Below are positions 4,431 to 20,640 of a DNA stretch of 64,000 nucleotides, piece after piece; the stretch's first letter is position 1, and every line of letters begins with the position of its first letter. The notes under the pieces are model-generated. The model worked only from the letters and a program-made list of their open reading frames with translations. It was not told the origin of the DNA and searched no databases. The translations under genes and the position numbers were made by a program. Source of the DNA: Sulfurovum sp. GTDB taxonomy: Bacteria > Campylobacterota > Campylobacteria > Campylobacterales > Sulfurovaceae. The stretch is from contig JALXCZ010000008.1 in assembly GCA_026990595.1 (NCBI GenBank), forward strand, positions 1 to 64,000. The letters run 5' to 3'.

Positions 4431-4441
4431 TTTTTCTTCCT

Positions 4442-4540: not shown

Positions 4541-4604
4541 AAAGATAATTATTTTCCTTTAAGTTTAAAGAAGCTATACTTTCTAAAGGATAATTTTTAT
4601 CCTT
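4541..4604 (+). promoter_or_regulatory. Two similar AT-rich palindromic sites upstream of the ferritin/rubrerythrin genes
   Basis: The site at 4586-4604 is a perfect 8-bp inverted repeat (AAGGATAA, TTT, TTATCCTT). A related sequence at 4541-4560 (AAAGATAATTATTTTCCTTT) lies 45 bases upstream. Both contain GATAATT and end in CCTT. Their place just upstream of an iron-storage/peroxide-defence operon fits operators for a Fur/PerR-type repressor. That identity is inference from position and AT-rich dyad shape. Confidence 0.4.
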
Positions 4605-4628
4605 ATATAAAATATAAAAGGAGTCATG

Positions 4629-5144
4629 ATGGCACGAAGAGGAAATTCTATTATTAAAGGAATAGAGATTAGTGAGATCATCACCTTACTTAATAAGGCG
4701 TATGCAGATGAATGGTTGGCATATTACCAGTACTTCATTGAAGCAAAAGTGATCAAAGGAATTATGAAAGATGCAGCTATTGCTGAGCTCACACAACATG
4801 CAACAGATGAACTGAGACATGCCAATATGGTAGCTGACCGTATTTTACAGCTGGGAGGTACCCCCTTGCTTAATCCTAAAGATTGGTTCACTCATACCAA
4901 CTGCGGCTATGAAGAACCAAAGGCGTTTGATGTCGTAAAGATACTGGAAGACTCCATTAAAGGTGAGCAGTGTGCTATCTCTGTCTATTCCAACTTGGCA
5001 GAGTTGACAAAAGACAAAGATATCGTTACCTATGACATTGTCTCTGAAATACTGGCAGATGAAGTAGAACATGAAGAGGATCTTCAGGCACTGCATGATG
5101 ATATTACAGAATTCATCATAGATATTAAGAAAAATTTGAACTAA
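4629..5144 (+). CDS. Ferritin-like diiron protein (bacterioferritin/Dps-like group)
   Basis: 171 residues from the second of two adjacent ATGs (4626, 4629); AAGGAG at 4618-4623 is 5 bases from the second but only 2 from the first. The protein is one four-helix bundle. Likely metal ligands are E28 (in ADEWLAYYQY), E61/H64 (in DELRHAN), the Glu of GEQCAIS and the ExxH of DEVEHEED. The family oxidises and stores iron or removes peroxide in the cytoplasm. The gene is 22 bases upstream of a rubrerythrin gene, supporting oxidative-stress defence. I cannot separate bacterioferritin-like from DPSL-type proteins by eye. Confidence 0.75.
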   Translation: MARRGNSIIKGIEISEIITLLNKAYADEWLAYYQYFIEAKVIKGIMKDAAIAELTQHATDELRHANMVADRILQLGGTPLLNPKDWFTHTNCGYEEPKAFDVVKILEDSIKGEQCAISVYSNLAELTKDKDIVTYDIVSEILADEVEHEEDLQALHDDITEFIIDIKKNLN

Positions 5145-5166
5145 AAAATAAAAACAAGGAAAAAAA

Positions 5167-5826
5167 ATGAAACAGTACGAAACATATAAATGTAACAAAT
5201 GCGGTAATGAGGTAGAGGTACAGGAAGTAGGAGGCGGAACACTGGTCTGTTGCGGAGAAGAGATGGCATGTATCACAGAAAATCTTACTGCTGTAAATTT
5301 AATGAAAGCATTTGCCGGGGAATCTCAGGCTAGAAACAAATATGAATTCTTTGCCGACGTCGCTTATACTGAGGGACTACACCGCATTGCAAAACATTTT
5401 CAGGAAGCAGCGAACAATGAAAAATACCATGCTATGGCAGAATACAAAGCCTACAATAAACTGGTGAAAAATATTGAGCTGGACACGACACAAAAAAATC
5501 TAATGGTTGCTGCAGATGGTGAACGGTATGAACATGAGGAGATGTATCCTAATTTTGCTGTTATCGCCAAAGAGGAAGGTTTAAATGATATTGCCAGACT
5601 CTTTAGAGCCATTGGTAAAGTAGAAGTTGAGCATGAAGCGGAATATTTGGAACTCAAACGCATTCTTGAAGCTGAAGGTTTCTTTGACAGTGAAAACAAT
5701 GAAGAGTGGATCTGTGAAGTCTGCGGACATGTACATAGAGGAAAACGTCCTCCTGAAAAATGTCCACTCTGTAAAGCAGACAAAGAGTACTTCAAGAAGA
5801 AGTGTCAGGACTCAAGCAGAGGGTAA
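5167..5826 (+). CDS. rrc: Desulforubrerythrin (rubrerythrin with N- and C-terminal iron centres)
   Basis: 219 residues in three parts. Residues 1-35 form a desulforedoxin-like FeS4 site (C9, C12, C28, C29). The middle is a rubrerythrin diiron four-helix bundle with ligand motifs GESQARNKYEF, EKYHAM, ERYEHEE and EVEHEAEYL. The C-terminus is a rubredoxin domain (CEVCG near 183, CPLC near 200). This three-domain layout matches Campylobacter jejuni Rrc, a cytoplasmic peroxide reductase; the symbol follows that homology. AAGGA precedes the ATG. It is co-directional with the ferritin-like gene. Confidence 0.88.
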   Translation: MKQYETYKCNKCGNEVEVQEVGGGTLVCCGEEMACITENLTAVNLMKAFAGESQARNKYEFFADVAYTEGLHRIAKHFQEAANNEKYHAMAEYKAYNKLVKNIELDTTQKNLMVAADGERYEHEEMYPNFAVIAKEEGLNDIARLFRAIGKVEVEHEAEYLELKRILEAEGFFDSENNEEWICEVCGHVHRGKRPPEKCPLCKADKEYFKKKCQDSSRG

Positions 5827-5836
5827 TAACTTCTAC

Positions 5837-6634
5837 CTACAGTACTTTTTGATGCAGTATGATCTTAGTCTCAGATGGCTCTAACCCGGAGTCATCTTTT
5901 GTTCTATCGTAAGCGATCACATAGATTTCATCACCACTTTGCAAATAATTTTTCTCTCCAAATTCTGCATAGGCAGTTGCACCTATAGAAATAAATGCCT
6001 GATGAGGATAGCTGCATGCTCTTAGATGTTCTGCAATATTTTCTAATGGTCCAAAATCAATTTGTGTATTCATCTTATCGATAAGCCATGATTTAAGCTT
6101 ACCATAGAAGTAAGAGTAACCAACTAACGGGGCATCCACCCCATAAGGATACAAAATACCATTACGTTGCAAAAAAGAACAGAGATGGTACTTATCCATC
6201 ACCCCGCCCTTTTCAAACTTGTTTATAACAATCCATTTATCGCCTATGCCTTTAGAGTAAGAACCCCATGATTTCTTTTCTGAGATCTTTTTTGCACCCT
6301 CTTTTCTAATCGTACAGTCATTAAAGGTTGTAAATTTTTTTGCTATCAGATCAATGACTTGTTTATCTTCATCATAAACAATATCAAAAAGTACTGCTAT
6401 TTCCGGTTCAACCTGGGCATTTGCTTCGTAGTTTGGAAGTTCAAGTCTGTCTGTTCCAATGCAATATTGACCTAAAAAAGAATCTGATCCGGGGAGATAA
6501 AAAGGAAATATTCCTTTAGGAGCATTCGCTTCAGCAGTGACTACATTCTCAAAATCTTTAAGTTCTCCAGCCTGTTCCAGATGGTGTGCAAAATTCCCTG
6601 CCACACCTAAACCTATGACATTTTCTAAATTCAT
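5837..6634 (-). CDS. DUF5718 family protein
   Basis: 265 residues from the ATG at 6634 (MNLENVIGLGVAGNF). The frame runs further upstream, but those 23 residues are irregular and the chosen N-terminus looks like a real protein start. It resembles the uncharacterised DUF5718 family of Campylobacterota: soluble, no signal peptide, with conserved-looking blocks GLGVAGNFAHHLEQAGE and LPGSDSFLGQYCIG. By eye it recalls fumarylacetoacetate-hydrolase-like folds, which I cannot confirm. It converges on the rubrerythrin gene. Confidence 0.65.
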   Translation of the reverse strand: MNLENVIGLGVAGNFAHHLEQAGELKDFENVVTAEANAPKGIFPFYLPGSDSFLGQYCIGTDRLELPNYEANAQVEPEIAVLFDIVYDEDKQVIDLIAKKFTTFNDCTIRKEGAKKISEKKSWGSYSKGIGDKWIVINKFEKGGVMDKYHLCSFLQRNGILYPYGVDAPLVGYSYFYGKLKSWLIDKMNTQIDFGPLENIAEHLRACSYPHQAFISIGATAYAEFGEKNYLQSGDEIYVIAYDRTKDDSGLEPSETKIILHQKVL

Positions 6635-6748
6635 CTCAACTCTTTTAATTTTTATAAAAGTATACCATCTAATCACTATCAAACCAATGCACACATAATA
6701 CACGCAAAAATTTTATACTTGTATATTCTTTCCCAAGAAGGAGTAACT

Positions 6749-6958
6749 ATGCCAAAGAATAAAAAGGATAATAAAAATATGATTTTAGTAGCAGTTATTA
6801 TAGGTATATTTTTATTCTTTATGTTTGCTACTGTAGTCTATGTCACAAGTCAGGTTTCAAATTGCTCAAGTGGGAAAAAACTCAGAAAACAATGCACAGT
6901 AATCATTCCTGATCAAAAGTTAAATCATAGGCTCAATTTTTCACTCTTTACACTTTAA
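6749..6958 (+). CDS. Small single-pass membrane protein, unknown
   Basis: 69 residues from the ATG at 6749, which has a good AAGGAG site 6 bases upstream; an ORF start at 6719 lacks one. The layout is a lysine-rich N-terminus (PKNKKDNKN), one strongly hydrophobic helix (residues 11-33) and a short polar tail. By the positive-inside rule the N-terminus should be cytoplasmic. No family recognised. Confidence 0.55.
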   Translation: MPKNKKDNKNMILVAVIIGIFLFFMFATVVYVTSQVSNCSSGKKLRKQCTVIIPDQKLNHRLNFSLFTL

Positions 6959-7082
6959 AGAGTACAGTCACACAATCCTACTGTAATAAATGTCTCAAGT
7001 CACTTTTCACTTCTTTTGGCTGTTGGTATGTTTTTACCTGCACTTATATGTGATAGTTTTATGTATTGGCGATGGAGAAAGA

Positions 7083-7325
7083 CTACTTCTGTTTAATGGT
7101 TCGATATATACCAATAAAAAAGAGAGTCAAAAGAATAATACTCAGATAGATATCTGCATTGAATCCACAACTGCACTCTCCCACATATCCGTCTACAGCT
7201 TGCATATATGTATCTTGACAGAATATTCTTCCTATAAAATCAGAGATATACCCTGTGGTTCGGTCTATTAGCCATATAGAAAAAGAAAGTATCGAAATTT
7301 GTATATTAACATTCTTTAGTATCAT
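7083..7325 (-). CDS. Possible small membrane protein downstream of serine hydrolase
   Basis: 80 residues, starting 3 bases after the stop of the upstream serine hydrolase on the same strand. It has two hydrophobic stretches (near residues 5-20 and 60-75) around a loop with several cysteines (FCQ, ECSCG). There is no clear ribosome site, so coupling to the upstream gene would be needed. The stretch 6959-7328 holds no better gene; an opposite-strand frame is compositionally weaker. Function unknown. Confidence 0.4.
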   Translation of the reverse strand: MILKNVNIQISILSFSIWLIDRTTGYISDFIGRIFCQDTYMQAVDGYVGECSCGFNADIYLSIILLTLFFIGIYRTIKQK

Positions 7326-7328
7326 ACT

Positions 7329-8804
7329 TTATTGAACTCTCGATACAGAAAACTTATCTCCCAGTTCTCTGGCTAAAACAGTATTGAAATCCATACTGTT
7401 ATGTATCATAGTAATGAGTGAAGCATTGTTTTCTGGACTAAAGATACCACAGGTTACTTCAAAACTTTGTTTAAACTGTTCATACAGCGCAGGATACCCA
7501 CTGTTTGGCATACGATTAGCAGTTTGTTTGTTGAGTATTTGTAAGGCTGTACGGGCATTCTTTTTATCAGCTTCTGTACTGTTTTTATTGTGTAAAATAT
7601 CTTGAAAATGGTGAATATTTTTATGGTTAATCTCTGTAGCATGTCTAAAGTTTTCTATTTGTTTCGTGAGTAGTGTACATTTTTGATTTAATGTATCATT
7701 GTCATATATCTGAATATTTGCAGCTTTCAGAAAGAGGTTTAGACTTCTTACCTGCGCATCGTTTGTCCCTACAATGTATGTGGTGTTTGTTTTGAGATTG
7801 GTTGTAACATAAGATTCAAACCCGAACGTCTGTCCACCATGCCCATAGAAATCTCCAACTTTCATGACCCCATAGCCATAGGTTATCGCTTTAATATTGG
7901 GATCCATAGTATGAAAGCCTTGTGTGAGTTGGGTATGTAGGGTATTTGTTTTTTTATAGTATTTTCCCTCTCTCCAAGCATTGATGAGTATGTCCAAATC
8001 ACTTAATGTCGATATTATTTCCCCTGCACTGCTAGCGAGAGACATAGGCATATGTGTAGGATGAGACTTATTATACCCTTTTGGCATCTGTGCTCGCAGT
8101 ATTTTAGAAATGCGTGTACCAAAATAGGTATGTTTTACGCCTGCAACATCAAAGATGTGTGTTTGTATATAGTCATGCCACTCCATGCCTGAACGCTTAG
8201 AGATGATGTCACCTAAGAGTAAATACCCTGTATTGCAATAACGAAATTGCTCCCCTGGCTTGAAATTAACCTCACCAAAATTGAGTGTGAGGTCGATGAT
8301 ACTTTCAAAAGTATACACTTTAGCCTTTTTACTAAAAACATCTATTGCCTTATCATCATTGCCATAAACATTAAGATAGTCAACAAGTCCTGAAGTATGA
8401 TTAAGTAACATACCCACAGTAATCTTGCTCCAATAGTTTTTGCCCTTATAGTTCGCCAAGTTTTGTATCTTCCCTGTCGGGTAGAGTGTATCAAGCGTGG
8501 TATCTAGGCTTAGCTTTCCTTCTTCTATCAGCTGAAAGACCGCTATAGCTGTAAAAATTTTACTCGCAGACCCTATCTCAAACATATCATCTGTTTTTAT
8601 GGGTATTTGTTTTTCTCTATCTGCAAAACCTGAAGCACTTTTATGGATGTCTCCGTGCTTATCTTCTAGTAAAAGAATGGCTGTTTGATTATTCCCTTCT
8701 GTATATCTTTGTACTAGAGTATCGAGTTGTGTTTGTCTCGTATTGTTGTTTGCATAGAGTGCAGGAGAAAGTAATAATATTGTGTATACTAGTGTCTTAA
8801 ACAT
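7329..8804 (-). CDS. Serine hydrolase of the class C beta-lactamase / penicillin-binding family
   Basis: 491 residues with a signal peptide (about 1-18, ending ALYA), so periplasmic. The SxxK nucleophile motif is SASK at 79-82. The second-motif tyrosine is in YCN near 188, and HGG near 320 serves as the third motif. About 130 extra residues follow the catalytic domain and are predicted helical. Members range from D-aminopeptidases and esterases to PBP-like enzymes; motifs alone do not give the substrate. It may form a unit with the small membrane protein downstream and follows two lipoprotein genes on the same strand. Confidence 0.8.
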   Translation of the reverse strand: MFKTLVYTILLLSPALYANNNTRQTQLDTLVQRYTEGNNQTAILLLEDKHGDIHKSASGFADREKQIPIKTDDMFEIGSASKIFTAIAVFQLIEEGKLSLDTTLDTLYPTGKIQNLANYKGKNYWSKITVGMLLNHTSGLVDYLNVYGNDDKAIDVFSKKAKVYTFESIIDLTLNFGEVNFKPGEQFRYCNTGYLLLGDIISKRSGMEWHDYIQTHIFDVAGVKHTYFGTRISKILRAQMPKGYNKSHPTHMPMSLASSAGEIISTLSDLDILINAWREGKYYKKTNTLHTQLTQGFHTMDPNIKAITYGYGVMKVGDFYGHGGQTFGFESYVTTNLKTNTTYIVGTNDAQVRSLNLFLKAANIQIYDNDTLNQKCTLLTKQIENFRHATEINHKNIHHFQDILHNKNSTEADKKNARTALQILNKQTANRMPNSGYPALYEQFKQSFEVTCGIFSPENNASLITMIHNSMDFNTVLARELGDKFSVSRVQ

Positions 8805-8830
8805 TTTTTGCCTGTATATATTTTTTCATC

Positions 8831-9163
8831 TTAATTTTTATATCTATTTTTTATAGCTGTATCACGTTGTGCATTAGCAATATTTTTCATAAGTTGTTTC
8901 TCTTCGGAATGACATACTTTGTATCCATCATCCCATCCTTCTTTGTACTTATGGTTGCTGTCATATTGTTGTACATTTTTTGTAAATTGGTCTAGCATTG
9001 AACCACCAGCTTTACGTCCACTGTGGCATCCATCTTCATATCCATGAGAATAGTATGGTCCATACCCTTGTTGCATCATTGTCTCCGAAGTACTTGCACA
9101 ACCCGTAAAAGCTATAGTTGCTACTACAGCTATAGTACCTAGTAAATATTTTCTTTTCATCAT
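8831..9163 (-). CDS. Small lipoprotein with repeated GYxDG-type motif
   Basis: 110 residues. A lipobox (FTGCAS) follows a hydrophobic signal, so the mature protein should be lipid-anchored. Two similar segments, GYEDGCHSGRKAG and GWDDGYKVCHSEE, share aromatic-x-DG and CHS elements and look like a small internal duplication. AAAGGA precedes the first of two tandem ATGs. Same strand as the neighbouring lipoprotein, 10 bases apart. Function unknown. Confidence 0.65.
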   Translation of the reverse strand: MMKRKYLLGTIAVVATIAFTGCASTSETMMQQGYGPYYSHGYEDGCHSGRKAGGSMLDQFTKNVQQYDSNHKYKEGWDDGYKVCHSEEKQLMKNIANAQRDTAIKNRYKN

Positions 9164-9173
9164 GTTATTCCTT

Positions 9174-9368
9174 TTATTTTAATGTATTGAGTGCAGCAAT
9201 ATCTTGGCTTGACAGGCTGTTCATCTCAGAAGATATAGTATTGTTAATCGCCTTTTCATTTGGGTCTTGATAGACATATCCTCCATTGTAGCTATTACCC
9301 GCACATGCGCTAAGTAAAAATATAGATGAAATAGTCAGTGTTCTTGTTAATAGAAGTTTTCTAATCAT
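9174..9368 (-). CDS. Small lipoprotein, unknown
   Basis: 64 residues with a lipobox (LLSACAG) near residue 22 after a hydrophobic signal. The mature part is about 43 polar residues with Gly/Tyr-rich GNSYNGGYVYQDP. It sits 10 bases upstream of the other lipoprotein gene and is probably co-transcribed with it. No family recognised. Confidence 0.6.
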   Translation of the reverse strand: MIRKLLLTRTLTISSIFLLSACAGNSYNGGYVYQDPNEKAINNTISSEMNSLSSQDIAALNTLK

Positions 9369-9417
9369 ATGATTTATGTTCCTTTTGTAATATTAAAAAA
9401 TAATAACACGCATCGTT

Positions 9418-12180
9418 TTAAAATGATAAGGGAATCCTCTCTGCTATTATCACATCCCCCGTAAAAATCTTTTTTGCGACAGATTTAATCTCGTCTGATG
9501 TAAGATTTTTTACCTCTTCGTTGATATGCAAGTACGCTTCTAGTGGTGTATCAAAATTGGCGGCAACTTGTAATGTTGAAAGCCAATAGGCATTATTTTT
9601 TATAGTTTGTTTATAGGCTACTGCAAACTCCGTTTGATAGTTTGTAAGTTCCTCTCTAGTCGGTCCTTTCTCTATAAAGTCTTTTATGGCTTTATACAGC
9701 GCAGCAAGAAGTTCATCTTTACGTTTAGGATCAGCTGCAAAATTTATATCACAAACGGCAGTGTTTTGTAATTGACGTATGAACGTACAAGCAACACCTA
9801 TACCATATGTACCAGATTTGTCTTCTCGAATGATATTGCGAAGGCGAATGGTTAAAATGCTTTGTAAGGCATCTAATGTGGCTGTTGTATGTACTGAAAA
9901 TGGTAGTATTGTTCTATATTTCAGTGAAATATTGGCTATATTTTCTGTATTGAATTTTTTGATAAAGTGTTGTTTTCCTTTTCGATAATCATACGGTATA
10001 CCGTTGTATGTCTCTTTTTTCTTAGCCGTGGGAAGCGTACCCAAATAGCGTTGTATAAGTGTTTCAAGTTTTTTAGTCGTTATGTCACCCACAATCACAA
10101 AATGAAAATGGTTCATATCTGTAAATTTTTCTTTAAAAATGCTAAGCATCTGTTTGGCATCAAGCTTTTCAATACTTTCTTTTGTATCAAAAAAGAGGCG
10201 TGGATTGTTTTTATAGTAAAATGCTGTAAATGCCTTTAGAAAGCGGTATGTAGGGTTTCTTCTCCCTTCTGGCAGTTGTGCCAAGAGTTGGTTGCGTAAC
10301 TGTTTTGTCACACTCGCGTCAATTTTAGGTTGCGTAACCTGAAGATAGATAAGATGTAGTAAACTTTCAAAATCTTTTGTCACGCTTTCGCCTTTAATAC
10401 TCTCATTAAAACGTTCTATTATAAAATCATAGTGAAGTTTTTTATCTGCCAGTAGTGCACCCATATTATAGCTTTTTATCTTCCACGGAGCAGAGTTGAC
10501 CACCCAGTTTGCCGCTTTGTGTGCGTTGTCTAACTCCGATACAGGAAGTGTAGACTCCCCTCCTTGGCTCAGTGCAAAAAGTACCACTTCATTTTTCTGT
10601 GATTGTGTCGGTTTAAAATCCACAGTGACATTGTTTTCAAGTGTATAGCTATAAATATTTAGTTTTTTGTTATACTTTTTATCTATGATTTTTGCAAGTT
10701 TATCTGGCTTGGGAGGCAAGGAAGTCTCTTTTGCCTCTGTTGGTTTCTTACTGTTTTCGACACTCTTCTTTGCTTTTTCTATGAGCCCTAATGCTTCTTC
10801 TTTAGAGACATTGTTTTCATCCGTCCCCATAAAAAGTATTGCTCTGTCTTTAATGTTAAGTATGTGTCGGTATCTGGCATTGACTTCTTCTAGGGTTATT
10901 TCTTTGAGTAGTTTTTTTGCAAGTGTGTAGTCATACTCTTCATCAATAAAGACATCACCTGTAAGTAACGTATGTACAATATCGGTGGCATAGCTAGATG
11001 ATAGTGTGTTCGCTTTTCCTTTGTGACTGTTTTCATTGAGTGTTAGAAGTTGTTTTTTAATGTTTTTAAAGGTACTTTGCTTGAAACCAAAACGTGCATA
11101 GGTGTAGACAATACGGTTAAGCTTTTCAAAAGCCTCTTCTCTATCTTCTTTTTTATAGGATGCAGAAAAAACAGTTGCTTTTTTTGAAGAATTGATATTT
11201 TCATTTTCCATGGAGAGTTCTAAAAGTTTTGTGTTTGTAGCAAGAAGATGTTTTTGTATGTTAATGTTAAACATAAGTGTAGTCATCCAATTTATCATCT
11301 GGGCTTTTAGCGCTTGCGATGTTATAATACCTTTTTGATTTTCCAAGAAAAACATTTGCACACTGTTTGCACTTAATTCTTTATCTGTTACCGTTAAAAT
11401 ACGCGTAGTATTATTTTCGGGAATAGTTCTACTTGTAAGTGCTGCATGATTTGTATTCTTTAAATCACTAAACATTGTTTGTATTTTTTTCTCTATCTTC
11501 TTAGGCTCTATATCTCCCACGATAACTAGTGCCATATGTTCAGGACGATACCACTTGTTATAAAAGTCTATAGCACGCTGTACAGGGGCATGTTTTAAAA
11601 TGTCTTCTTTTCCTATGACTGTTTTATCTGCATATTTTGAGTGTGCGTAAAAAAGAGGAGCGAACTTGCGTAAAATACGATAGTTGGCATCATTACGCAG
11701 ACGTTTTTCTTCGAGTACAACGCCACGCTCTTTGTTGAACTCATTTTTGTTAAAATTTAAACCTCCTGCCCAATCACGCATAATCTGTAAAGATGTATCA
11801 ATATTATCAGCTTTCACAGGTACTCTCAACTTATAAAGTGTACGTTCATAGTCGGTGTTTGCATTCAAATCACCACCAAAAGTGAGCCCAATAGACTCCA
11901 AATAGCTAACAAGGTCATTTTTCTTAAAATGCGTTGTGCCATTAAATGCCATATGCTCTATAAAGTGTGCCAAACCACGTTGGTCATCCTCTTCTTCTAG
12001 AGAACCTGCATGCACAAAAAGACGAAATGAAGCGATATTTTTGGGCTTTTCATTGTGCATGATATAGTAATGCAACCCATTGGAAAGTCTACCTGAGACA
12101 AGCCGCTTGTCTGTAGGCAGCACCTCTGCACTTAATAAGATAAATAAAAATGATAATGTGAGGAGTATAAAACGATACAT
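9418..12180 (-). CDS. M16 family zinc metallopeptidase (pitrilysin/insulinase type)
   Basis: 920 residues from the ATG at 12180, chosen because it begins a clear signal peptide (MYRFILLTLSFLFILLSAEV) with AAGGTT upstream; an ORF start at 12228 adds 16 residues before the signal. The inverted zinc motif HxxEH is HFIEH at 72-76, with the distal glutamate region ERGVVLEEKR further on. A second M16-like half (about 500-920) lacks HxxEH, as usual for the non-catalytic half. Expected to be a periplasmic peptidase. It is the last recognisable gene before the island remnants. Confidence 0.88.
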   Translation of the reverse strand: MYRFILLTLSFLFILLSAEVLPTDKRLVSGRLSNGLHYYIMHNEKPKNIASFRLFVHAGSLEEEDDQRGLAHFIEHMAFNGTTHFKKNDLVSYLESIGLTFGGDLNANTDYERTLYKLRVPVKADNIDTSLQIMRDWAGGLNFNKNEFNKERGVVLEEKRLRNDANYRILRKFAPLFYAHSKYADKTVIGKEDILKHAPVQRAIDFYNKWYRPEHMALVIVGDIEPKKIEKKIQTMFSDLKNTNHAALTSRTIPENNTTRILTVTDKELSANSVQMFFLENQKGIITSQALKAQMINWMTTLMFNINIQKHLLATNTKLLELSMENENINSSKKATVFSASYKKEDREEAFEKLNRIVYTYARFGFKQSTFKNIKKQLLTLNENSHKGKANTLSSSYATDIVHTLLTGDVFIDEEYDYTLAKKLLKEITLEEVNARYRHILNIKDRAILFMGTDENNVSKEEALGLIEKAKKSVENSKKPTEAKETSLPPKPDKLAKIIDKKYNKKLNIYSYTLENNVTVDFKPTQSQKNEVVLFALSQGGESTLPVSELDNAHKAANWVVNSAPWKIKSYNMGALLADKKLHYDFIIERFNESIKGESVTKDFESLLHLIYLQVTQPKIDASVTKQLRNQLLAQLPEGRRNPTYRFLKAFTAFYYKNNPRLFFDTKESIEKLDAKQMLSIFKEKFTDMNHFHFVIVGDITTKKLETLIQRYLGTLPTAKKKETYNGIPYDYRKGKQHFIKKFNTENIANISLKYRTILPFSVHTTATLDALQSILTIRLRNIIREDKSGTYGIGVACTFIRQLQNTAVCDINFAADPKRKDELLAALYKAIKDFIEKGPTREELTNYQTEFAVAYKQTIKNNAYWLSTLQVAANFDTPLEAYLHINEEVKNLTSDEIKSVAKKIFTGDVIIAERIPLSF

Positions 12181-12485
12181 AAATAACCTTGTAAACTTTA
12201 GATGCAATAATGGTATAACATCTTTCACTTGATTTTGCTTTTTGTTTTGCCTTTAACATAGAATTTATCATATTTATTTGCAATCCTAAAATTGGATGAT
12301 AAGTCTTAAAGATTCTCTCTTGTTTCCCTTATGCCGATGAACATATTGAGCATATTATCAACACCAAGAAGACTATTACCAATGTAGAGAGCTACTACTG
12401 CCATCATCTGTGAATGTAAAGTCAGTATCTGGGACATTTTGTGATCTTAAAATTAAACGATAATATTGGATAGTATCCTTAAAAC

Positions 12486-12666
12486 AAAAAAAGAACTCAA
12501 TAAAAAATATGCACAGATCAAAAAATTAAAATAAGATAAAAAGAAACAAAGCAAAAAAATAGATACTATAACTGTTGAGAATGAAGAGTTAAGAACTGTT
12601 ATCTGTGAAATGGAAATGAAATCAAAAATAAAGCTATATTTTAACGGGATAAATAATCGAATTTAA
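12486..12666 (+). pseudogene. Decayed 3' end of a TnpC-like coiled-coil gene
   Basis: Reading toward the stop at 12664-12666 gives KKELNKKYAQIKKLK, a TAA stop, then DKKKQSKKID and ENEELRTVICEMEMKSK, ending in KLYFNGINNRI. This matches the last ~60 residues of the intact gene at 31602-32090 at roughly three quarters of positions, with one CAG-to-TAA nonsense change. The 5' two thirds are absent. It is the right-hand end of an older, related element. Confidence 0.85.
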
Positions 12667-12686
12667 GAAGTGTTTTTGAAGAAAAT

Positions 12687-12713
12687 AATTGTACTATTTG
12701 ATAGTACACAATT
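12687..12713. repeat. Element-end inverted repeat, left (older) copy
   Basis: AATTGTACTAT, TTG, ATAGTACACAATT: an imperfect dyad 20 bases after the tnpC-like remnant. An equivalent dyad lies 18 bases after the intact gene at 32109-32135. It is a candidate recombinase-binding site at the end of the decayed element. Confidence 0.6.
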
Positions 12714-12748
12714 AAAGCCCCGCCAGAAGGGGACTTAATGCACTATAA

Positions 12749-12778
12749 TTACGCGTTCGCCACAGCGTCTTTAAGAAT
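12749..12778 (-). other. Duplicated 3' end of an HU gene (attachment-site scar)
   Basis: On the minus strand these 30 bases encode ILKDAVANA plus stop, against TLKDAVAQA plus stop at the end of the intact hup (32170-32199). The two differ mainly at silent positions and one residue, and similarity ends just beyond. It lies in the same position relative to the tnpC remnant as real hup does to intact tnpC. I read it as the attachment site of the older element, and so the left boundary of the newer one. Confidence 0.75.
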
Positions 12779-12858
12779 ACTTATAAAAAGTAATAGTGAT
12801 AGTACAATTATTTATGTGCAAACACCGTTACGGTAAGCATTTAATGTACTATTATTTT

Positions 12859-13091
12859 TTAAAGGATAACTTTACTATATTCATTTGGACATACAAGTCC
12901 TAATTGTTTAAGACTTTGTTTATATTGTAGGAACATGCTTTGATACATACGGTTATCAACCAAAACCTCTTCAACAACAGTACTCCAATTAAAATCTAAA
13001 GTGCATGTATGGAATGGTTTTGTACCATTAATATTGATATTTTTTTAACAAAATCATTATTATCTGGGTTATAATTATACAATATGCGAAT
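12859..13091 (-). pseudogene. Frameshifted remnant of an unknown gene
   Basis: Minus-strand reading gives IRILYNYNPDNNDFVKK, then a frame change in a run of seven A/T, then INGTKPFHTCTLDFNWSTVV and onward to ...GLVCPNEYSKVIL and a stop at 12859. The two segments read as one C-terminal protein end if one base is added or removed. No start, no family recognised. The IS3-type fragment lies immediately upstream and may have broken it. Confidence 0.45.
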
Positions 13092-13100
13092 CTTTTTTTC

Positions 13101-13275
13101 TGATCTCCACCCAGAATTTTGGACAATTTAAAAGTAGAGTTTTTTCTGTAAAATAGAACTAGAATAATAGGAGAAACCAATGAGAAAATCAAAGTTTACA
13201 GATGAACAGATTGCGTTTGCACTGAGACAGGCAGAAGGTGGTACAATGGTAGATGAGATTTGCAGAAAGATGAGA
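13101..13275 (+). mobile_element. IS3-family fragment: left terminal repeat and start of orfA
   Basis: TGATCTCCACCCAGAATTTT at 13101 looks like an IS3-type terminal repeat. An ATG at 13180 with an AGGAG-like site starts MRKSKFTDEQIAFALRQAE followed by a segment ending EICRKM, which is the N-terminal helix-turn-helix of IS3-group OrfA. Similarity stops near 13272 and the frame runs into unrelated DNA. The rest of orfA, orfB and the right end are missing, so it cannot transpose. Confidence 0.8.
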
Positions 13276-13298
13276 GAACAGCATTACCCTTATACACT

Positions 13299-13883
13299 CT
13301 ATCGCTTTTCATCAAATTTTAGTATCCTGGCAAACCGAAAAAATGGCTTGTGATAGTCCATAAATATTTTATTTGTTTGATCTAAGCTATCAGAGGTAAA
13401 AAGGTGTACAACATCCTGCTGCATTTGGAATATAGAACGCATCATAGCACATATTGCGTCTGACTCTTCAAGCTTCAATACTTCAGTATAGTTTTCACTC
13501 CAAAACACAATCCTGCTCAACTGAGAATTCTCGATTATCATTTGGGGTACTTTCAGCACTACATCTAGGAACCTATAAGCATCTTCTTGTTCCCAAAACC
13601 TCAATGAATCGTTCAACTCTTTATCAATACAATCTTCGAATAGTAAGTGTACTTGTGCAAGAATCATTTTAGCAATATCTCGCATATTACTCACTTTAGC
13701 AAAGTCAACATAAAGTACTTTATAGGACTTACTTAAATGTTCCCTAAATGCCTCGATAAACTGTTGCTCTTCTTTGTTTTTATGAACCTTTACAATCACC
13801 GTACCTTGCCCAAACTCACGGATAAGGATATCCAGTTCTTTCCATTTTTTTTCTAAAATACCATTCCTTTTGATTGCTACCAA
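13299..13883 (-). CDS. ATPase-like protein lacking Walker A (possibly truncated)
   Basis: 194 residues from a TTG at 13883 with no ribosome site; the frame stays open about 15 codons upstream without an ATG. The order of blocks recalls the archaeal-type ATPases often carried on mobile DNA: YKVLYVDFAKVSNMRDIAK after the P-loop position, and a late IFQMQQDVVHLFTSDSLD. However, the P-loop position reads GTVIVKVHKNKEEQQF with no GxxxxGK[ST], and the Walker B position reads RIVFWSENY. The C-terminal part usual for the family is absent and the stop lies 24 bases from the IS3 fragment. It may be a degenerate regulator or a decaying gene. Family call tentative. Confidence 0.5.
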   Translation of the reverse strand: MVAIKRNGILEKKWKELDILIREFGQGTVIVKVHKNKEEQQFIEAFREHLSKSYKVLYVDFAKVSNMRDIAKMILAQVHLLFEDCIDKELNDSLRFWEQEDAYRFLDVVLKVPQMIIENSQLSRIVFWSENYTEVLKLEESDAICAMMRSIFQMQQDVVHLFTSDSLDQTNKIFMDYHKPFFRFARILKFDEKR

Positions 13884-13888
13884 TAATG

Positions 13889-13964
13889 GTATTGAAAATA
13901 AATACTTTTTGGTATCTAAATGTTTATTTTAACTTCAATACTTTTTAGTATTTATTTTCAATAC
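13889..13964. promoter_or_regulatory. Inverted-repeat cluster upstream of the ATPase-like gene
   Basis: An 18-nt sequence at 13889-13906 (GTATTGAAAATAAATACT) is repeated as its exact reverse complement at 13947-13964. Between them are two further AATACTTTTT[G/A]GTAT-type units, each a short dyad. The cluster fills most of the gap between two minus-strand genes (13883 and 13985), so it looks like an operator array or replication-type iterons. No protein can be assigned. Confidence 0.5.
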
Positions 13965-13984
13965 TCTTTGCGACATGATAACAT

Positions 13985-14377
13985 TTAATCTATGCCCGCA
14001 ATATCCATAGTTCTATTTTTATCAAATATATTTGCAATTGTCGGCAGGGACTCCTCAGTGATAAATATTTCTTTTTTACGCCTTTTTTCCTCAATTCTTA
14101 CTGAGGTTACATAAAGGCTAAAGTACTCCATTAGTTTCTCTGGTTCAATTTTTATTTCCATATTCTTTTTCATGATTGACTTGCTTTCTAGATGCAGTAT
14201 AGCAATAAGTAATGCTGATGATGGGGTCTCTTCAGTAGTGTTGTTATCAATTGCATCTGCTTCACGTATCATCCTATGCAGGATCTCATCTGTTAAGTTC
14301 TGTGGCAGCAGACACTTGATGCCGTTTTTTTTTATAAGCTTTAGTAGTTTTTGTGTCGGATGTTTATTGTCTTTCAT
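13985..14377 (-). CDS. Hypothetical protein, divergent from XRE regulator
   Basis: 130 residues, charged and predicted helical, no signal or membrane segment, no family recognised. It begins MKDNKHPTQKLLKLIKK and contains EEKRRKKEIFITEE near residue 96. The start region mirrors that of the divergent XRE gene (GTAGGTA a few bases before ATGAAAG), which suggests shared control through the palindromic spacer. Possible partner of the ATPase-like gene downstream. Confidence 0.5.
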   Translation of the reverse strand: MKDNKHPTQKLLKLIKKNGIKCLLPQNLTDEILHRMIREADAIDNNTTEETPSSALLIAILHLESKSIMKKNMEIKIEPEKLMEYFSLYVTSVRIEEKRRKKEIFITEESLPTIANIFDKNRTMDIAGID

Positions 14378-14380
14378 ATT

Positions 14381-14453
14381 TACCTACCTATAGTTAGTTG
14401 ATAATAAGTTGTAGCAAACATATACTTATAGTTAGTTTATCTATGGGTAGGTA
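14381..14453. promoter_or_regulatory. Divergent operator between 13985-14377 and the XRE gene
   Basis: TACCTACCTATAG (14381-14393) is mirrored by CTATGGGTAGGTA (14441-14453) with one mismatch, and TATAGTTAGTT occurs twice in direct orientation (14389-14399 and 14427-14437). The layout is typical of an autoregulated XRE repressor controlling two divergent promoters; the repressor is presumably the adjacent gene. Confidence 0.55.
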
Positions 14454-14458
14454 TAGAA

Positions 14459-14716
14459 ATGAAAGAGTGTACTATTTCTGATGAAAGAATGAAGACGATA
14501 TATAAGAAAATTGGAGCAAACGTAAAAGAGATACGTCAATCTAAGAATATTTCTCAGCTTGCACTGGCTTTGGCAATTGGTCATAAAGCAGTTGGTGTAG
14601 TTTCCATGGCAGAACTGTGCATAAACAATAAACATTTCAATATAGAACATTTAGTGAAAATAGCAGAAGTACTAGAAGTCGATGTGTGTGATTTCTTTAT
14701 AGGTTTGGACACATAA
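14459..14716 (+). CDS. XRE-family helix-turn-helix regulator
   Basis: 85 residues. An XRE/Cro-type HTH covers about 17-75: IGANVKEIRQSKNISQLALA and IEHLVKIAEVLEVDVCDFF. Small single-domain regulators like this control restriction systems and mobile elements. It lies at the left edge of the island, divergent from 13985-14377, with a palindromic operator between. A frameshifted paralogue sits at 15199-15505. Its targets are not shown by the sequence; self-regulation is likely. Confidence 0.8.
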   Translation: MKECTISDERMKTIYKKIGANVKEIRQSKNISQLALALAIGHKAVGVVSMAELCINNKHFNIEHLVKIAEVLEVDVCDFFIGLDT

Positions 14717-15198
14717 TTGTCATCTACAAAAGTAAATGCAAAACAACAGATAAAAAAGAATTATTTTTGGCGAAATATTACAATGATAATTGAGAAGAGA
14801 ACATTAGATAGTAAGAACAAGACACTTAGTACAATATATAGTGCAAATACAAGTAAACTTGGACGTAGATAAAAAAGGTATAAGGTGTACCTAGCCGCTG
14901 TCACAACTAGGAACGGTAACTCTTGAACTCCGTTTGTCAATTAAGAGTTGTTTTTCCAAAGGATATAAAGCTTAGTCACTTTATATGTAATTCCTAAAAG
15001 CAATGATGTAACTGTTAGATAAAATATTATCTCCATAAGACTCACTCATAAGGTATAAGATCCCCCAACCCCACACACTACTTTTGTTAAATCGCATTAT
15101 CTTTTATAAATGAGAATAATGGTATCTAAGGAATCTCTTTCTGCTGCAAGCAATATATTTTACACGAAAAGAGAAATTCAATTTACTGCCTCAAAAAA
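14717..15198. other. Intergenic stretch between the two XRE genes
   Basis: 482 bases without a recognised gene family. It contains the small minus-strand reading frame at 14941-15036, an inverted repeat AACTCTT/AAGAGTT at 14918-14949 overlapping its stop, and a short stem CCTAG/CTAGG near 14890-14911. Nothing else could be supported. Confidence 0.5.
14941..15036 (-). CDS. Possible 31-residue hydrophobic peptide (type I toxin-like)
   Basis: The minus strand from 15036 encodes a 31-residue peptide beginning MEIIFYLTVTSLLLGITY and ending KLYILWKNNS. It has one hydrophobic helix and a basic/aromatic C-terminus, the usual shape of membrane-acting type I toxins. A GAGTGAG sequence lies upstream, and an inverted repeat overlaps the stop codon and could fold in the mRNA 3' end. 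Toxin function and an antisense RNA are inference; at this length a chance frame cannot be excluded. Confidence 0.35.
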   Translation of the reverse strand: MEIIFYLTVTSLLLGITYKVTKLYILWKNNS

Positions 15199-15505
15199 AT
15201 GGACGATACCAATGAGGATTTTTTCATAAGACAATTGGGCTTAATATAAAAAAAGAGAGAAGAAAGGATTGTCACAGTTGCAGCTATCTCAAATGATAGG
15301 ACATAAATCTCTCACTATTATTTCAAGGGCTGAGATTTTTTATAGAGGGCAACACTTTAATATCGAGCATCTTGTAAAAATTGCATTTGTTTTAAATATT
15401 GATATTGAAGTACTTCTACCTAATATTATTTTAGACGATATTAATCATCATCTTTCCAACCTATTTTTCCTCTTTCCCCAATCAGGCATAAAGAGGTTCA
15501 AATAA
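15199..15505 (+). pseudogene. Frameshifted XRE-family regulator
   Basis: From ATG 15199 the frame gives MDDTNEDFFIRQLGL and stops at 15247. In another frame the protein continues KKREKKGLSQLQLSQMIGHK and then FNIEHLVKIAFVLNIDIEVL. The joined product aligns with the intact XRE gene at 14459 (shared FNIEHLVKIA-VL-D). The break is at an A7 tract (15248-15254), so it is a recent frameshift or a slippage site. Its 3' end overlaps the end of the convergent ygjP-type gene. Confidence 0.65.
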
Positions 15506-16101
15506 TTATAGAACTTGGCACTATGATCCGCATAAACCAAATGAGCCAACTCATGAAACACTACATACTCTATACATTCCGTAGGCTTCTCAATCAGTTT
15601 TAGATTCAGATTGATATAGCCTTTACTTGGATTACAGCTTCCCCATCTGGTTTTCATTTCTCGTATGCGTACCGTTTCTATCTCTTGTTTAACTATGGGT
15701 TTGTATTTTTCTATAGCTTTTTGAAAGTGTATCTTTGCCTTTTGGGTGTACCAAGCTTTTATGAGTCTCTGCTTCTTCTCATAGTTTGAAGTATTCTTCA
15801 CAAAAACCTGCAAGTAACCTTTTTGAAGCTTCACGCCCTCTTCTTTACTCTCTATTACTTTCAGACGATAGTTTCGCCCCAAATAACGAAAGTTCTCTCC
15901 ACTTACATACTCTTTGACATGCACCTCTCTATGAGCATCAAAAAAAGCAATCTTCTTATCTATCCAGTCAGCTCTTTTTTTAAGTACGTACTCTATATCT
16001 CTTTCGTTACTATCAGTAGGAGCTGTAAGTATTACCTCTCCACTTGGTTTGACTTTGAGGTTGATGTGTTTGACATCTTTTTTAATTATATGTACATTCA
16101 T
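15448..16101 (-). CDS. YgjP-type (DUF45) metallopeptidase of the type I restriction locus
   Basis: 217 residues. The zinc motif HELAH lies near residues 182-186 with a second histidine in ADHSAKFY, matching the YgjP/DUF45 (M48-like, SprT-like) family. It also has the usual TRWGSCNPSKGYINLNLKL segment region just before. Such genes often accompany hsdR; their cellular role is uncertain. The ATG overlaps the hsdR stop by one base (TGATG), so translation is coupled. Confidence 0.85.
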   Translation of the reverse strand: MNVHIIKKDVKHINLKVKPSGEVILTAPTDSNERDIEYVLKKRADWIDKKIAFFDAHREVHVKEYVSGENFRYLGRNYRLKVIESKEEGVKLQKGYLQVFVKNTSNYEKKQRLIKAWYTQKAKIHFQKAIEKYKPIVKQEIETVRIREMKTRWGSCNPSKGYINLNLKLIEKPTECIEYVVFHELAHLVYADHSAKFYNYLNLFMPDWGKRKNRLER

Positions 16102-19100
16102 CAGTAGTTATTTATACCTATTTGCTGTATGGTTGCCAGTAGTTCATCGGTGTTTGTAAACTTCAGACCATACTTATCTTCCATCTCCCAAAAAAGATCA
16201 TCTATCTGCCCTTCTATCTTGTTACGCATATCAGAGTTATTTTTCCAGTCAGGCTTCTTCGATGCCTCTTGAAATATCTCTACTATCTTCATTACCGTTT
16301 GTGTGAGCAGATCTTCTTCTGCTTTACTTCTATACCCTAGAGGTGCTTCTGCCACCAAGATACGCTCATCCACATTGTTCATCGCTTCACCAAAACGCTC
16401 TTCCAAGTTATCATAAAATGCTCTTGCATGGATATTGTGCTTAATACTCTCTGGATAATTAGATTCTTCCTCCACTTCATCTTTAAGAAGTAAGTCTCTT
16501 ATCTCTTTCGCGTGCTTGAGCTTCTCCTCTTCCGTCAGTCGTTTCTCTCTATACTCTTCTATAATCTCTGCAATGCGTTTAGAGAGCTTATCATAGTACG
16601 CAGGGTTACTCTCACGCTTTTCGGTGATGACTGCTGTTGTGGCATTCAGTATGCTGTCTGCTCTGGCATTGTCACCCACCACTCTTTCTAATTCTTTTTC
16701 AAACTCTTCATCAAAGATGTTTACCAGTTTCGTCAACTGATTCACTTCATCCGCAGAGATGAACGTATCAAGTAATTTTTGCATCTGCTTCTCGTACTTC
16801 CCAAAATCTACTTGTTCATGGTAACGTATGCGTATCGCTTTACGCAACTCTGCATAGAACTTCATCTTCTCTTTATAGTTTGCTATTTCTTTATCGCTAA
16901 AGACTTCACTTATCTTGTCACTAGAGAGTGCTAGCTTTAATGCTCTGGCATAATGCGAGAGATACTCATAAAAGAGTTTTCGTTTCTCTTCGTCTGCCAA
17001 GTAGACTTCATAGCTCTCTTGGTCTTGCTTATTCTTCACCTCTTTAAACAGCTCTTCCAAATACTCATAATAGGTCTTAACCCTAGCTATCTCTTCTTTT
17101 ATGTCAAACACTGCCCCTGCAATATCCTCTTCATCAAAGTCAGCCAATCCAGAGTAGTCGTTAAGTGCTTTATCCAAATCACCTAGCAATCCACGGTAAT
17201 CTACTATGAATCCAAAGTCTTTCCCCTCATATAGACGGTTTACCCTTGCTATGGCTTGCAAGAGGTTATGCTCTTTAAGCAGTTTGTCTATGTAAAGTAC
17301 CGCAGCTCTTGGGGCATCAAATCCTGTAAGGAGTTTGTCTACCACGATGAGAAGTTCTATCTCTTCACCATTAATAAACTCATCTTTGACTTTATCTAAG
17401 TACTTCTCTTCATCCCCATACTTCTTCATCACTCTTGACCACTCTTCTTGGATAAATGCTTTATTTTCATCATCCACCTCAGAGTGTCCTTCTCTACTGT
17501 CAGGTGCAGAGATGACAAATGCCGTGCGTATGTCTCCCATCTCTTCAAAAAGTTTATGGTACTTGATGGCTTCATACTTAGAACTCGTAGCAAGCATGGC
17601 TTTAAAGTCTGTACCTTGCAGGCGTTTGCGTACATCTTCGTTGATGTCTAGCATGATCATCTCAAGCCGTCTCTCACTAGAAGCCACTTTTTGAAACCTC
17701 GCCCACTTCTTTTTGAGGTCAAGCACTTGCTCTTCTTCTAGGTGTCTGGCTATCTGCTCAAAGCGTCTGTCTAGTCCTTTTTCATCGTTCACCCATTGGT
17801 CTACCAGTCGTCCTTCATAAAGTAGTGGCAGTACAGCTTTGTCTTCCACTGCTTGGTTGATGGTATAACGGTGTATCTCTCCACCAAACTTAGCAAAAGA
17901 GTTCTTCTCTCTTCTCATCAAAGGTGTCCCTGTAAACCCAAGGTAACACGCTTCGGGGAAGACTTTTTTCATAGCCTTATGCATATCTCCACCCTGTGTA
18001 CGGTGTGACTCATCTACAAGTATAAACGTATTTGGGTCATCAAATGTGACGTTCTCATTTTTAACCTTCTCAAACTTATGTATGAGTGTGGTAATGACAG
18101 ACTTTCCTGACCGCAACAACGCTACCAAGTCTTTACCAGACCTTGCCCTTACAGCTTTAACTTCGGAGTTATTAAAAGTATCGTGTATCTGCTTATCTAA
18201 GTCTTTTCTATCGGTAACGATGATGACTTTAGATCCGACTATGCTTCGCTTGATAACCTTTGCCAACATCACCATAGTTAGTGACTTGCCAGACCCCTGT
18301 GTATGCCAGATGAGTCCACCTTGTCGTCTGCCTGTGTTATCAAGCTTCCCTATACGCTCCATGATGCTCTCTATGGCAAAATACTGCTGATACCGTGCTA
18401 TCTTTTTCACCTTGCCATCAAAGATAATAAACGAATGCAACAACTCCACCATGCGGTGCTTCTCAAAGAGTGCATAAACAGTTTTATCTAACGGTGAAGG
18501 TGTACGGTCTTTCACTACAGTACTCAAATCTATATCTTTCTCTTTCCATACTGCATAAAACTTTTTCGGTGTCCCTGTTGTTCCATACTGTGGAGAGTGG
18601 TTATTCCCTGCGAGTGTCATCTGTACATACTTAAAAAGGTTGGGTATCTCATGGGTATCTTGGTTACGCAACATCTGAGAGATACCCTCTTCTGTGCCTC
18701 TACTAGAACGTTTTAGCTCTATCACCCCAAAGGGTATACCGTTTATAAACAATACAAGGTCAGGTCGCCTACTCTTCGTCTGCTCCTGCTGTGTCACCCT
18801 GTCTACTACAAACTCTTCTGTGACATGAAAAACATTGTTTTCAGGGTTTTTGTAGTCTATGTAGTGCAGAGAAAAGCTTTTTTTCACTCCATCTATCAGC
18901 TCTTCGCTGTATGAGTTACCGAGCAGGAGTTGGTCACTTATCTTCTGATTGGCAGTCATAAGCCCTTCATTGAGCAAAACATCCAAGTCGTCTATAGCTC
19001 TGGCTATATTTTTCGCAGAAAATGGGTACTGTGTTCCTTTGTACTCAAAGCCATTAAGCTCTTGGAGTTGTTTGAGCAAAATATCTTTGAGAACTACTTG

Positions 19101-19217
19101 CCCTGTGCTACTTCTATGCTGTGCTATCTCCTCTGGAGAGATGTAGGTGTAGCCCATATTTTTTAGGAGGTCAATAGTGTTATTTTGGATTTGGGTTTCG
19201 TTTGTGTTTGGGGTCAT
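16101..19217 (-). CDS. hsdR: Type I restriction enzyme R subunit
   Basis: 1038 residues, usual length. The order is an N-terminal nuclease domain (PD-ExK type: RRPDLVLFINGIPFGVIELK region, about 148-170), then a superfamily 2 translocase with Walker A GSGKS near 309, DESH near 402 and later helicase motifs (FTGTPL, AIARVNR), then a helical C-terminus that binds the M2S core. It cuts unmodified DNA after ATP-driven translocation. AGGGAGGG precedes the ATG. It is separated from hsdM/hsdS by the nuclease-like, membrane-GAF and Panacea genes, with a 105-base gap upstream that could hold its own promoter. Confidence 0.96.
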   Translation of the reverse strand: MTPNTNETQIQNNTIDLLKNMGYTYISPEEIAQHRSSTGQVVLKDILLKQLQELNGFEYKGTQYPFSAKNIARAIDDLDVLLNEGLMTANQKISDQLLLGNSYSEELIDGVKKSFSLHYIDYKNPENNVFHVTEEFVVDRVTQQEQTKSRRPDLVLFINGIPFGVIELKRSSRGTEEGISQMLRNQDTHEIPNLFKYVQMTLAGNNHSPQYGTTGTPKKFYAVWKEKDIDLSTVVKDRTPSPLDKTVYALFEKHRMVELLHSFIIFDGKVKKIARYQQYFAIESIMERIGKLDNTGRRQGGLIWHTQGSGKSLTMVMLAKVIKRSIVGSKVIIVTDRKDLDKQIHDTFNNSEVKAVRARSGKDLVALLRSGKSVITTLIHKFEKVKNENVTFDDPNTFILVDESHRTQGGDMHKAMKKVFPEACYLGFTGTPLMRREKNSFAKFGGEIHRYTINQAVEDKAVLPLLYEGRLVDQWVNDEKGLDRRFEQIARHLEEEQVLDLKKKWARFQKVASSERRLEMIMLDINEDVRKRLQGTDFKAMLATSSKYEAIKYHKLFEEMGDIRTAFVISAPDSREGHSEVDDENKAFIQEEWSRVMKKYGDEEKYLDKVKDEFINGEEIELLIVVDKLLTGFDAPRAAVLYIDKLLKEHNLLQAIARVNRLYEGKDFGFIVDYRGLLGDLDKALNDYSGLADFDEEDIAGAVFDIKEEIARVKTYYEYLEELFKEVKNKQDQESYEVYLADEEKRKLFYEYLSHYARALKLALSSDKISEVFSDKEIANYKEKMKFYAELRKAIRIRYHEQVDFGKYEKQMQKLLDTFISADEVNQLTKLVNIFDEEFEKELERVVGDNARADSILNATTAVITEKRESNPAYYDKLSKRIAEIIEEYREKRLTEEEKLKHAKEIRDLLLKDEVEEESNYPESIKHNIHARAFYDNLEERFGEAMNNVDERILVAEAPLGYRSKAEEDLLTQTVMKIVEIFQEASKKPDWKNNSDMRNKIEGQIDDLFWEMEDKYGLKFTNTDELLATIQQIGINNY

Positions 19218-19322
19218 TTTCCCTCCCTATTTGTTTTCATGTTCTTCATCATAATCTAACTACATTTAAAATTTTAGTTACAGTCAATATTGAGTATTTG
19301 TGGCTTTCCAGAAGTTTTGACT

Positions 19323-19778
19323 TTACTCACTTTTATATTCCTTAGCCAAAGAAACCAAGTCAAGCATACTTCCTTTCATAGAGTTTTTTATTGGATAAGT
19401 TGAATAAACTGCATTAATAAATTGACTCCATGATAAATTTTGTGTAACTTCTATTACAAGATCAATTATATTTTTTTCATCTGGATTAGGTTCATTAAAA
19501 TTGTTCTCTATTACTCTAATAATATTTTTTTCACTACCATAATAATTTTGAGTAGTCTCAATTTTAAAACGAGGGTCAACCATCACCATGAGTTCTATCT
19601 CACTAACATATGGTCCATAATTATTAAAAAACCATTCTATATCCGTAATTTGTTTTTCCCTATCTATTGAAGATTTCCAATCAATTAAATAGATAATTTT
19701 ATTTAGTCTAGCTTTTGATAAATCATCTTTTTTAGAATAGTGTTTTACAATATATCCTATTAAATCATCTATTTGCAT
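19323..19778 (-). CDS. Panacea-domain (SocA/DUF4065) protein, candidate antitoxin
   Basis: 151 residues from the ATG at 19778, preceded by AGGAGG; a TTG one codon upstream is less likely. The segment ARLNKIIYLIDWKSSIDREK then ITDIEWFFNNYGPYVSEIE is characteristic of the Panacea/SocA domain. Panacea proteins are known as antitoxins paired with many unrelated toxins, and some as phage-derived factors. The start overlaps the stop of the upstream membrane-GAF gene by one base (TGATG), as in toxin-antitoxin pairs. Antitoxin role inferred. Confidence 0.8.
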   Translation of the reverse strand: MQIDDLIGYIVKHYSKKDDLSKARLNKIIYLIDWKSSIDREKQITDIEWFFNNYGPYVSEIELMVMVDPRFKIETTQNYYGSEKNIIRVIENNFNEPNPDEKNIIDLVIEVTQNLSWSQFINAVYSTYPIKNSMKGSMLDLVSLAKEYKSE

Positions 19779-20512
19779 CAAAAACCTCCTATTGTATTAT
19801 CTTGACTTCTAATATTATTTGGATCAACCTTCATTGAATTAATCAAAATATTAATATCTTTTGTTTGTTCTATGAATTGACTCCTAACATCTTTTGTTCT
19901 AAAAGTTTTTTCTTTCATAGATTGATACACAACAACACCTATCTTATTCATATGTTTATCATCCCATAAAGGTACACCAAACATTGACTTGCTTTGCATT
20001 TTTCTTTTTCCTAGAAAACCATTATGAATTTCTGGTGCCTTTTTATGATGGGTTTCATCATTAAGTACTTGAAATACATATTCTTTTTGGTTATCAATTA
20101 TATATCTTCCTTCTTGATTGTATTTTGGAGCAGAAGCATATCTTCCAACAGAAAAGAACTTATTCAATGTAGAAGAATACAAAAAAACTGTTACCCTAAA
20201 ATCTTCATTTAATCCTAATGATTCAAATATTTCTTTAAGTTTTTCATCTATTCCTGAACTTAGAAATCCTCTATATTGTTTAATTGCTTCAATTAATTTC
20301 TTATTGTCACCCTTTAATTTAAAATTATGATACTCAATAATATACCTTACAATAATAGCTAAAAATAAAATTACAATCAAAGCCGGTCTAATTATCGTAA
20401 TATTAGATTTTATAAATTCATAATTATAAACAAAACTATCACTAGGTAACGCAAATAATATGGGTATTGTTAAAAGTAACACCTCACAAAGTATTTTTAT
20501 AAAATTAATCAT
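19778..20512 (-). CDS. Membrane-anchored GAF-like protein, candidate toxin/effector partner of Panacea
   Basis: 244 residues from the ATG at 20512, chosen for its AAGGAG site 5 bases away; the frame extends 6 residues further. Two transmembrane helices occupy about residues 1-25 and 38-58. A cytosolic part of about 180 residues follows with GAF-like features: VTVFLYSSTLNKFFSVGRY, then KSMFGVPLWDD and KIGVVVYQSM. No nuclease or NTPase motif is visible. Coupling to a Panacea gene inside a restriction locus suggests a toxin-antitoxin or abortive-infection module in which the GAF part senses a ligand. Function is inference. Confidence 0.6.
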   Translation of the reverse strand: MINFIKILCEVLLLTIPILFALPSDSFVYNYEFIKSNITIIRPALIVILFLAIIVRYIIEYHNFKLKGDNKKLIEAIKQYRGFLSSGIDEKLKEIFESLGLNEDFRVTVFLYSSTLNKFFSVGRYASAPKYNQEGRYIIDNQKEYVFQVLNDETHHKKAPEIHNGFLGKRKMQSKSMFGVPLWDDKHMNKIGVVVYQSMKEKTFRTKDVRSQFIEQTKDINILINSMKVDPNNIRSQDNTIGGF

Positions 20513-20571
20513 TTTTCTCCTTAATATCAATAACTCTAATTAAACTTATTATAGTATCATTCTTCTAATGG

Positions 20572-20630
20572 ATCCCGATATCACCCGAAGATATAAGTAG
20601 GGCTTGCCTCTCAACGATGCTGGTCGGGAT
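20572..20630. repeat. Short inverted repeat in the gap before the membrane-GAF gene
   Basis: ATCCCGA (20572-20578) and TCGGGAT (20624-20630) flank 45 bases. They lie between the nuclease-like gene and the membrane-GAF gene, a 128-base gap where the leftward operon may be attenuated or restarted. A weak signal. Confidence 0.25.
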
Positions 20631-20640
20631 ACTGACTTGT

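Follow-up and report, generated by a model that had tools for sequence, protein, structure and literature searches.

Probable stepwise integration of two related GInt-like elements at the hup 3' end of a Sulfurovum genome

Two related GInt-like elements very probably integrated one after the other at a single site, the 3' end of hup (the gene encoding HU), in the Sulfurovum sp. genome that contains the 64,000-nucleotide stretch of DNA analyzed here (the window). The element that probably arrived first (O) is reduced to a short scar of ~290 bp and, in all likelihood, an adjoining foreign block, and the second element (N) is intact. The features concerned are as follows.

5837-6703, minus strand: host DUF5718 gene (Pfam PF18985), the ancestral hup neighbor, which adjoins hup in G042, where the site is empty
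6749-6958, plus strand: small host ORF between DUF5718 and hup (alignment to G042 L048)
6960-12486, unstranded: foreign block extending from host synteny to the scar, not seen at hup in any relative examined
7329-8804: β-lactamase-fold hydrolase in the foreign block (Pfam)
8831-9163: lipoprotein-like gene in the foreign block
9418-12228: M16 peptidase in the foreign block (Pfam)
12487-12666, plus strand: decayed 3' end of the O ginD-like gene, 60 codons with one in-frame TAA (alignment, protein search)
12667-12748, plus strand: right end of O, a conserved dyad (TTGTACTATTTGATAGTAC) plus an inner motif (nhmmer E 7e-16; right-end model 66.6 bits)
12749-12775, minus strand: HU 3' end assigned to O (LKDAVANA, stop), 27 nt
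12768-12775: putative recombination core CTTAAAGA within the HU piece of O
12776-32196, unstranded: element N, intact, 19.4 kb (both ends defined against G029, G061, and L005)
12776-12866, minus strand: left end of N with the tip GTATT at 12776-12780 (alignment of four left ends; nhmmer 67.4 bits)
15448-26386, minus strand: type I restriction-modification genes plus accessory genes, carried by N as cargo (PADLOC, Pfam)
16101-19217: hsdR in the cargo of N
22035-23327 and 25790-26386: two hsdS genes in the cargo of N
24303-25790: hsdM in the cargo of N
26488-27666, plus strand: ginA-like tyrosine recombinase (Pfam Phage_integrase 1.8e-15)
27638-30079, plus strand: ginB-like tyrosine recombinase, 813 aa (Pfam Phage_integrase 5.4e-11)
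30067-31602, plus strand: ginC-like protein, 511 aa, without a Pfam match and with altered recombinase-type boxes in five homologues
31602-32090, plus strand: ginD-like small protein, 162 aa (called tnpC in the original prediction)
32091-32169, plus strand: right end of N, downstream of hup, with the dyad folding as a hairpin that precedes a U-rich stretch
32170-32451, minus strand: hup (HU), the 3' end (AVAQA, stop) assigned to N; core at 32189-32196

Anatomy of the scar beside element N

The original prediction held that a tnpC 3' end, an end dyad, and an HU 3' end recur at 12486-12778 in the arrangement seen at the intact right end, and local alignment of 12400-12900 with 31800-32500 bore this out. 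Positions 12487-12777 aligned with 31911-32198 as one block that scored 173, whereas 300 first-order shuffles gave 40 at most. The block is free of large gaps and crosses, in order, the last 60 codons of the ginD-like gene, the end dyad, the inner motif, and the HU 3' end. It begins inside the fourth operon gene and ends at the HU 3' end, and hence the similarity is both above chance and bounded by the two segments expected to bound it. The ginD-like stretch of the scar is collinear with the intact gene over its 60 codons and carries one in-frame stop (TAA). Protein searches of the whole genome (2.05 Mb in 52 contigs) found only two ginD-like copies, that of the scar and the intact gene, and the right-end model likewise found only two full right ends, that of the scar and that of N. 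No second copy of 12229-12500 was found in the genome.

The HU fragment required correction. It had been given as 30 nt encoding ILKDAVANA, but consists of 27 nt (12749-12775) encoding LKDAVANA and a stop. The supposed first codon, ATT, belongs to the left tip of N, and three relatives likewise have GTATT or GTATA ahead of the core. As no HU ending listed has Ile at that position, ILKDAVANA was discarded as an HU variant. It had also been proposed that the fragment came with a different element or host. The first half of that proposal is supported, O being very probably a separate element, whereas LKDAVANA by itself is no evidence of a foreign host because hup genes of the genus commonly end in this way. 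Most likely LKDAVANA was the tail that O itself carried.

The recombinase operon of N (26488-32090) consists of four adjacent genes that point at hup and end ~80 bp from it, with the cargo located upstream of the ginA-like first gene. The ginC-like protein is probably a recombinase relative lacking the full catalytic set, as its altered boxes suggest; its AlphaFold model is of low confidence (mean pLDDT 40.8) and was set aside.

Homologous elements at hup in relatives

Every relative found sits at hup. Six strong right ends other than those of the window all lie beside this gene (in G004, G029, G061, G339, the Sulfuricurvum genome L004/G436, whose two records are apparently one contig, and the Campylobacterota MAG L005), and in all of these except G004 a homologous element adjoins hup. 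In G004, hup adjoins an element right end and the decayed end of a ginD gene but no further element (a solo scar); the G061 element, rather than O, is the nearest relative of this remnant. G042 has an empty site, in which hup is followed by the small ORF and DUF5718. The elements of G029, G061, and L005 measure 16.8, 27.4, and 7.2 kb, respectively. As in N, the fourth operon gene of G029 and G061 is ~80 bp from the hup end, with the cargo upstream of gene 1.

Left ends were read in G029, G061, and L005, where the tip GTAT[T/A] leads into the core CTYAAAGA, beyond which lies a displaced 3' end of the host hup; for the Sulfuricurvum element, the stretch examined yielded no left end. In G029 a terminator-like hairpin comes after the displaced hup end. 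The same was seen by eye in G061, where DUF5718, the ancestral neighbor, follows the displaced end. Only in the window does an N-type left tip meet the right end of another element (O), with no native terminator. Four elements have the core at both of their ends, as short imperfect direct repeats. From the junctions in G029, G061, and L005, it follows that each element swaps the hup tail for its own and shifts the old tail leftward.

Using the right-end profile, full-length right ends were detected in four of 78 genomes of the genus (that of the window, G004, G029, and G061), and an order-level sample of 399 gave two more (G339 and G436). All of the full-length right ends found with the profile are beside hup, and only the genome of the window has two. 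The element family is rare yet faithful to the hup site. No relatives were found in plasmids and viral contigs. Right-end-like matches below ~26 bits in other genomes were treated as chance palindromes. The dyads downstream of hup in G005 and G060 (~10 to 19 bits) were considered as scars and taken to be ordinary terminators, though a very old scar could still lie there. The dyad of the right end is able to form a hairpin with a U-rich stretch after it on the hup side, which might explain why right ends survive longer than other parts of the element.

A two-step model for accretion at hup

In the model that we favor, each element would bring a replacement for the last hup codons together with the sequence beyond them, with recombination occurring at the 8-bp core CTYAAAGA, which falls within the Leu-Lys-Asp codons. 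Action of the recombinases at the core is what the four junctions suggest. O would have landed first and then decayed, losing its left tip and all of its recombinase genes save the last 60 ginD codons, whereas its right end would have been retained, plausibly since it supplied the hup tail. N would then have recombined at the core left at the hup/O junction, giving hup the new tail AVAQA and shifting the right end of O and its LKDAVANA tail to the far side of N. On this scheme the circle junction of N would have GTATT joined to CTTAAAGATGCCGTGGCTCAAGC.

The tandem integration at hup that had been predicted is supported by the junction of left tip and core, by three relatives with single insertions, by the empty site of G042, and by the solo scar of G004, which is the kind of intermediate expected of stepwise accretion. 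What is found in the window is a decayed element that keeps an att end and adjoins an intact element having the same target gene, the arrangement that defines tandem accretion.

We infer that O preceded N because O is decayed and N is intact; the anatomy imposes no strict order. If N had integrated at hup first and O had later entered the core at the left junction of N and then decayed, the final anatomy would be identical, since the core is at both ends of an integrated element. We consider this reverse order unlikely. O is truncated and interrupted by a stop, whereas the four genes and both ends of N are intact; moreover, G004 shows that solo scars at hup occur, and in the left junction of N the hup-side half of the site has been replaced by the tip.

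Relationship of the scar to element N

N is the closest match of the scar within the genome, being 79% identical over the end region, and the scar might be a decayed partial duplicate of N that arose, for example, by one-ended or repeated insertion of the N circle. However, over the same region identity to the G029 element is 88% for N and 78% for the scar. The scar departs from the state common to N and G029 at 34 sites, and for 21 of them its state recurs in an outgroup element. In comparison, N agrees with the scar at 14 sites and G029 does so at 12, a balanced distribution. The scar and N differ, too, in dyad spacer and in HU tail. Duplication of N was rejected on the site counts and seems very improbable. 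The scar lineage most likely split off before N and G029 separated, as judged from these sites and from a tree resting on eight right ends, in which N, G029, and the scar form a three-way fork without bootstrap resolution. As O branches outside N plus G029, it would not be a decayed copy of N, in keeping with the older, related element originally proposed. Finally, although the region is AT-rich, the reading of the scar as a relic of the hup terminator or a chance similarity is refuted by the alignment score relative to shuffles, by the collinear ginD frame, and by the sequences downstream of hup in element-free relatives, which match the right-end profile only at the level of chance.

On the other side of the scar, synteny with G042 (DUF5718 plus the small ORF) ends at ~6935, in the 3' end of the small ORF, and the break is within tens of bases of the expected end of the original hup. 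Profile searches and alignments against shuffles found nothing above chance at 6.9-7.4 kb for either the left tip of O or the displaced original hup tail. The extent of O must be estimated because these two landmarks were not found, and the ~5.5 kb at 6.94-12.49 kb is probably its remaining body or cargo. The M16 gene of this block is present in eight of the 78 genus genomes, that of the window included.

Comparison with known systems

N resembles the Tn554 family (tnpA, tnpB, and tnpC) in its site specificity and in having recombinase genes followed by a small gene. The Tn554 family has three genes rather than four, and these are in a different order relative to the ends.

At one end of SE elements, too, are four conserved genes, and two of these encode tyrosine recombinases. 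Their second product lacks the catalytic set, their third is catalytic, and their hosts are Gammaproteobacteria (PMC10214605). The SE gene order (catalytic, non-catalytic, catalytic, small) was not found in N, in which gene 2 matches Phage_integrase and gene 3 does not.

The GInt operon encodes two tyrosine recombinases and two further proteins, the third having an altered catalytic set and the fourth, GinD, being small and reportedly of low identity to TnpC (Bardaji et al. 2017, PMC5385486). We liken N to GInts by gene content: there are four genes, with Phage_integrase matches in genes 1 and 2 and none in gene 3. Further likenesses are site-specific integration that overlaps the 3' end of a housekeeping gene while the gene is kept, short imperfect direct repeats, and variable cargo. 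GInts target ssb or an ABC transporter gene and have the first gene at the element end with cargo after the fourth (PMC5385486). That layout was not found in the window, G029, or G061. Rather, in the N family the operon is reversed, the fourth gene being beside the target and the cargo upstream of gene 1; the target is hup and the hosts are Campylobacterota.

Accretion in three steps (integration, decay, and tandem accretion) is known for ICE, IME, and CIME elements, as reviewed in PMC5704250 (citing Pavlovic et al. 2004). Those elements are conjugative or mobilizable, whereas here a multi-recombinase family is involved, at hup. A CIME keeps both attL and attR; of O the right end is present and the left tip was not found. 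The accretion mechanism is already known and the novelty lies in the element family, the hup site, and the operon orientation.

The genomes together display stages at one site, read from sequence alone: empty (G042), singly occupied (G029 and G061), decaying (L005), solo scar (G004), and scar plus insertion (the window). With them, hup joins the genes known to be targeted by multi-recombinase islands, and they suggest how islands may leave lasting genes beside a conserved housekeeping gene. The hup of the window is the only HU-type gene that searches detected in the genome. HU-type proteins assist site-specific recombination. A further, rather unlikely picture would be of a reverse-oriented, GInt-like family of Campylobacterota that docks repeatedly at hup, each time rewrites the HU C-terminus and terminator, and, given this role of HU, perhaps selects the HU tail that the cell makes, with the cargo of decayed elements becoming host genes.

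Cargo and HU endings of the elements

Within the type I restriction locus of N, the proteins encoded at 20641-22038 and 23320-24306 match the candidate defense families PDC-M36A (weakly) and PDC-S05 (strongly), respectively. A short remnant near the left end of N (13171-13353) is similar to the beginning of an IS3-type transposase (MRKSKFTDEQIAFALRQAEGG). The G029 element (L038 1209-11017) encodes a protein matching the candidate defense family PDC-S06 and, beyond it, a 1569-aa protein without a PADLOC match. The G061 element (L039, L120; C14, ~7.6-26 kb) carries as cargo an apparently whole [NiFe] hydrogenase set, with structural and hyp-type maturation genes. In G339 (L119 3690-12780) the second recombinase gene is interrupted by ~5.5 kb containing transposase-like and apparent DNA-modification genes. 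The L005 element (3395-10583) has kept both ends and a HipA-like gene, and its operon is reduced to the end of gene 3 plus gene 4, which shows operon decay between two preserved ends. The last residues of HU differ with the resident element, being AVAQA, AVSGAK, or AVAGN in the hup tails of L001, L038, L039, and L040.
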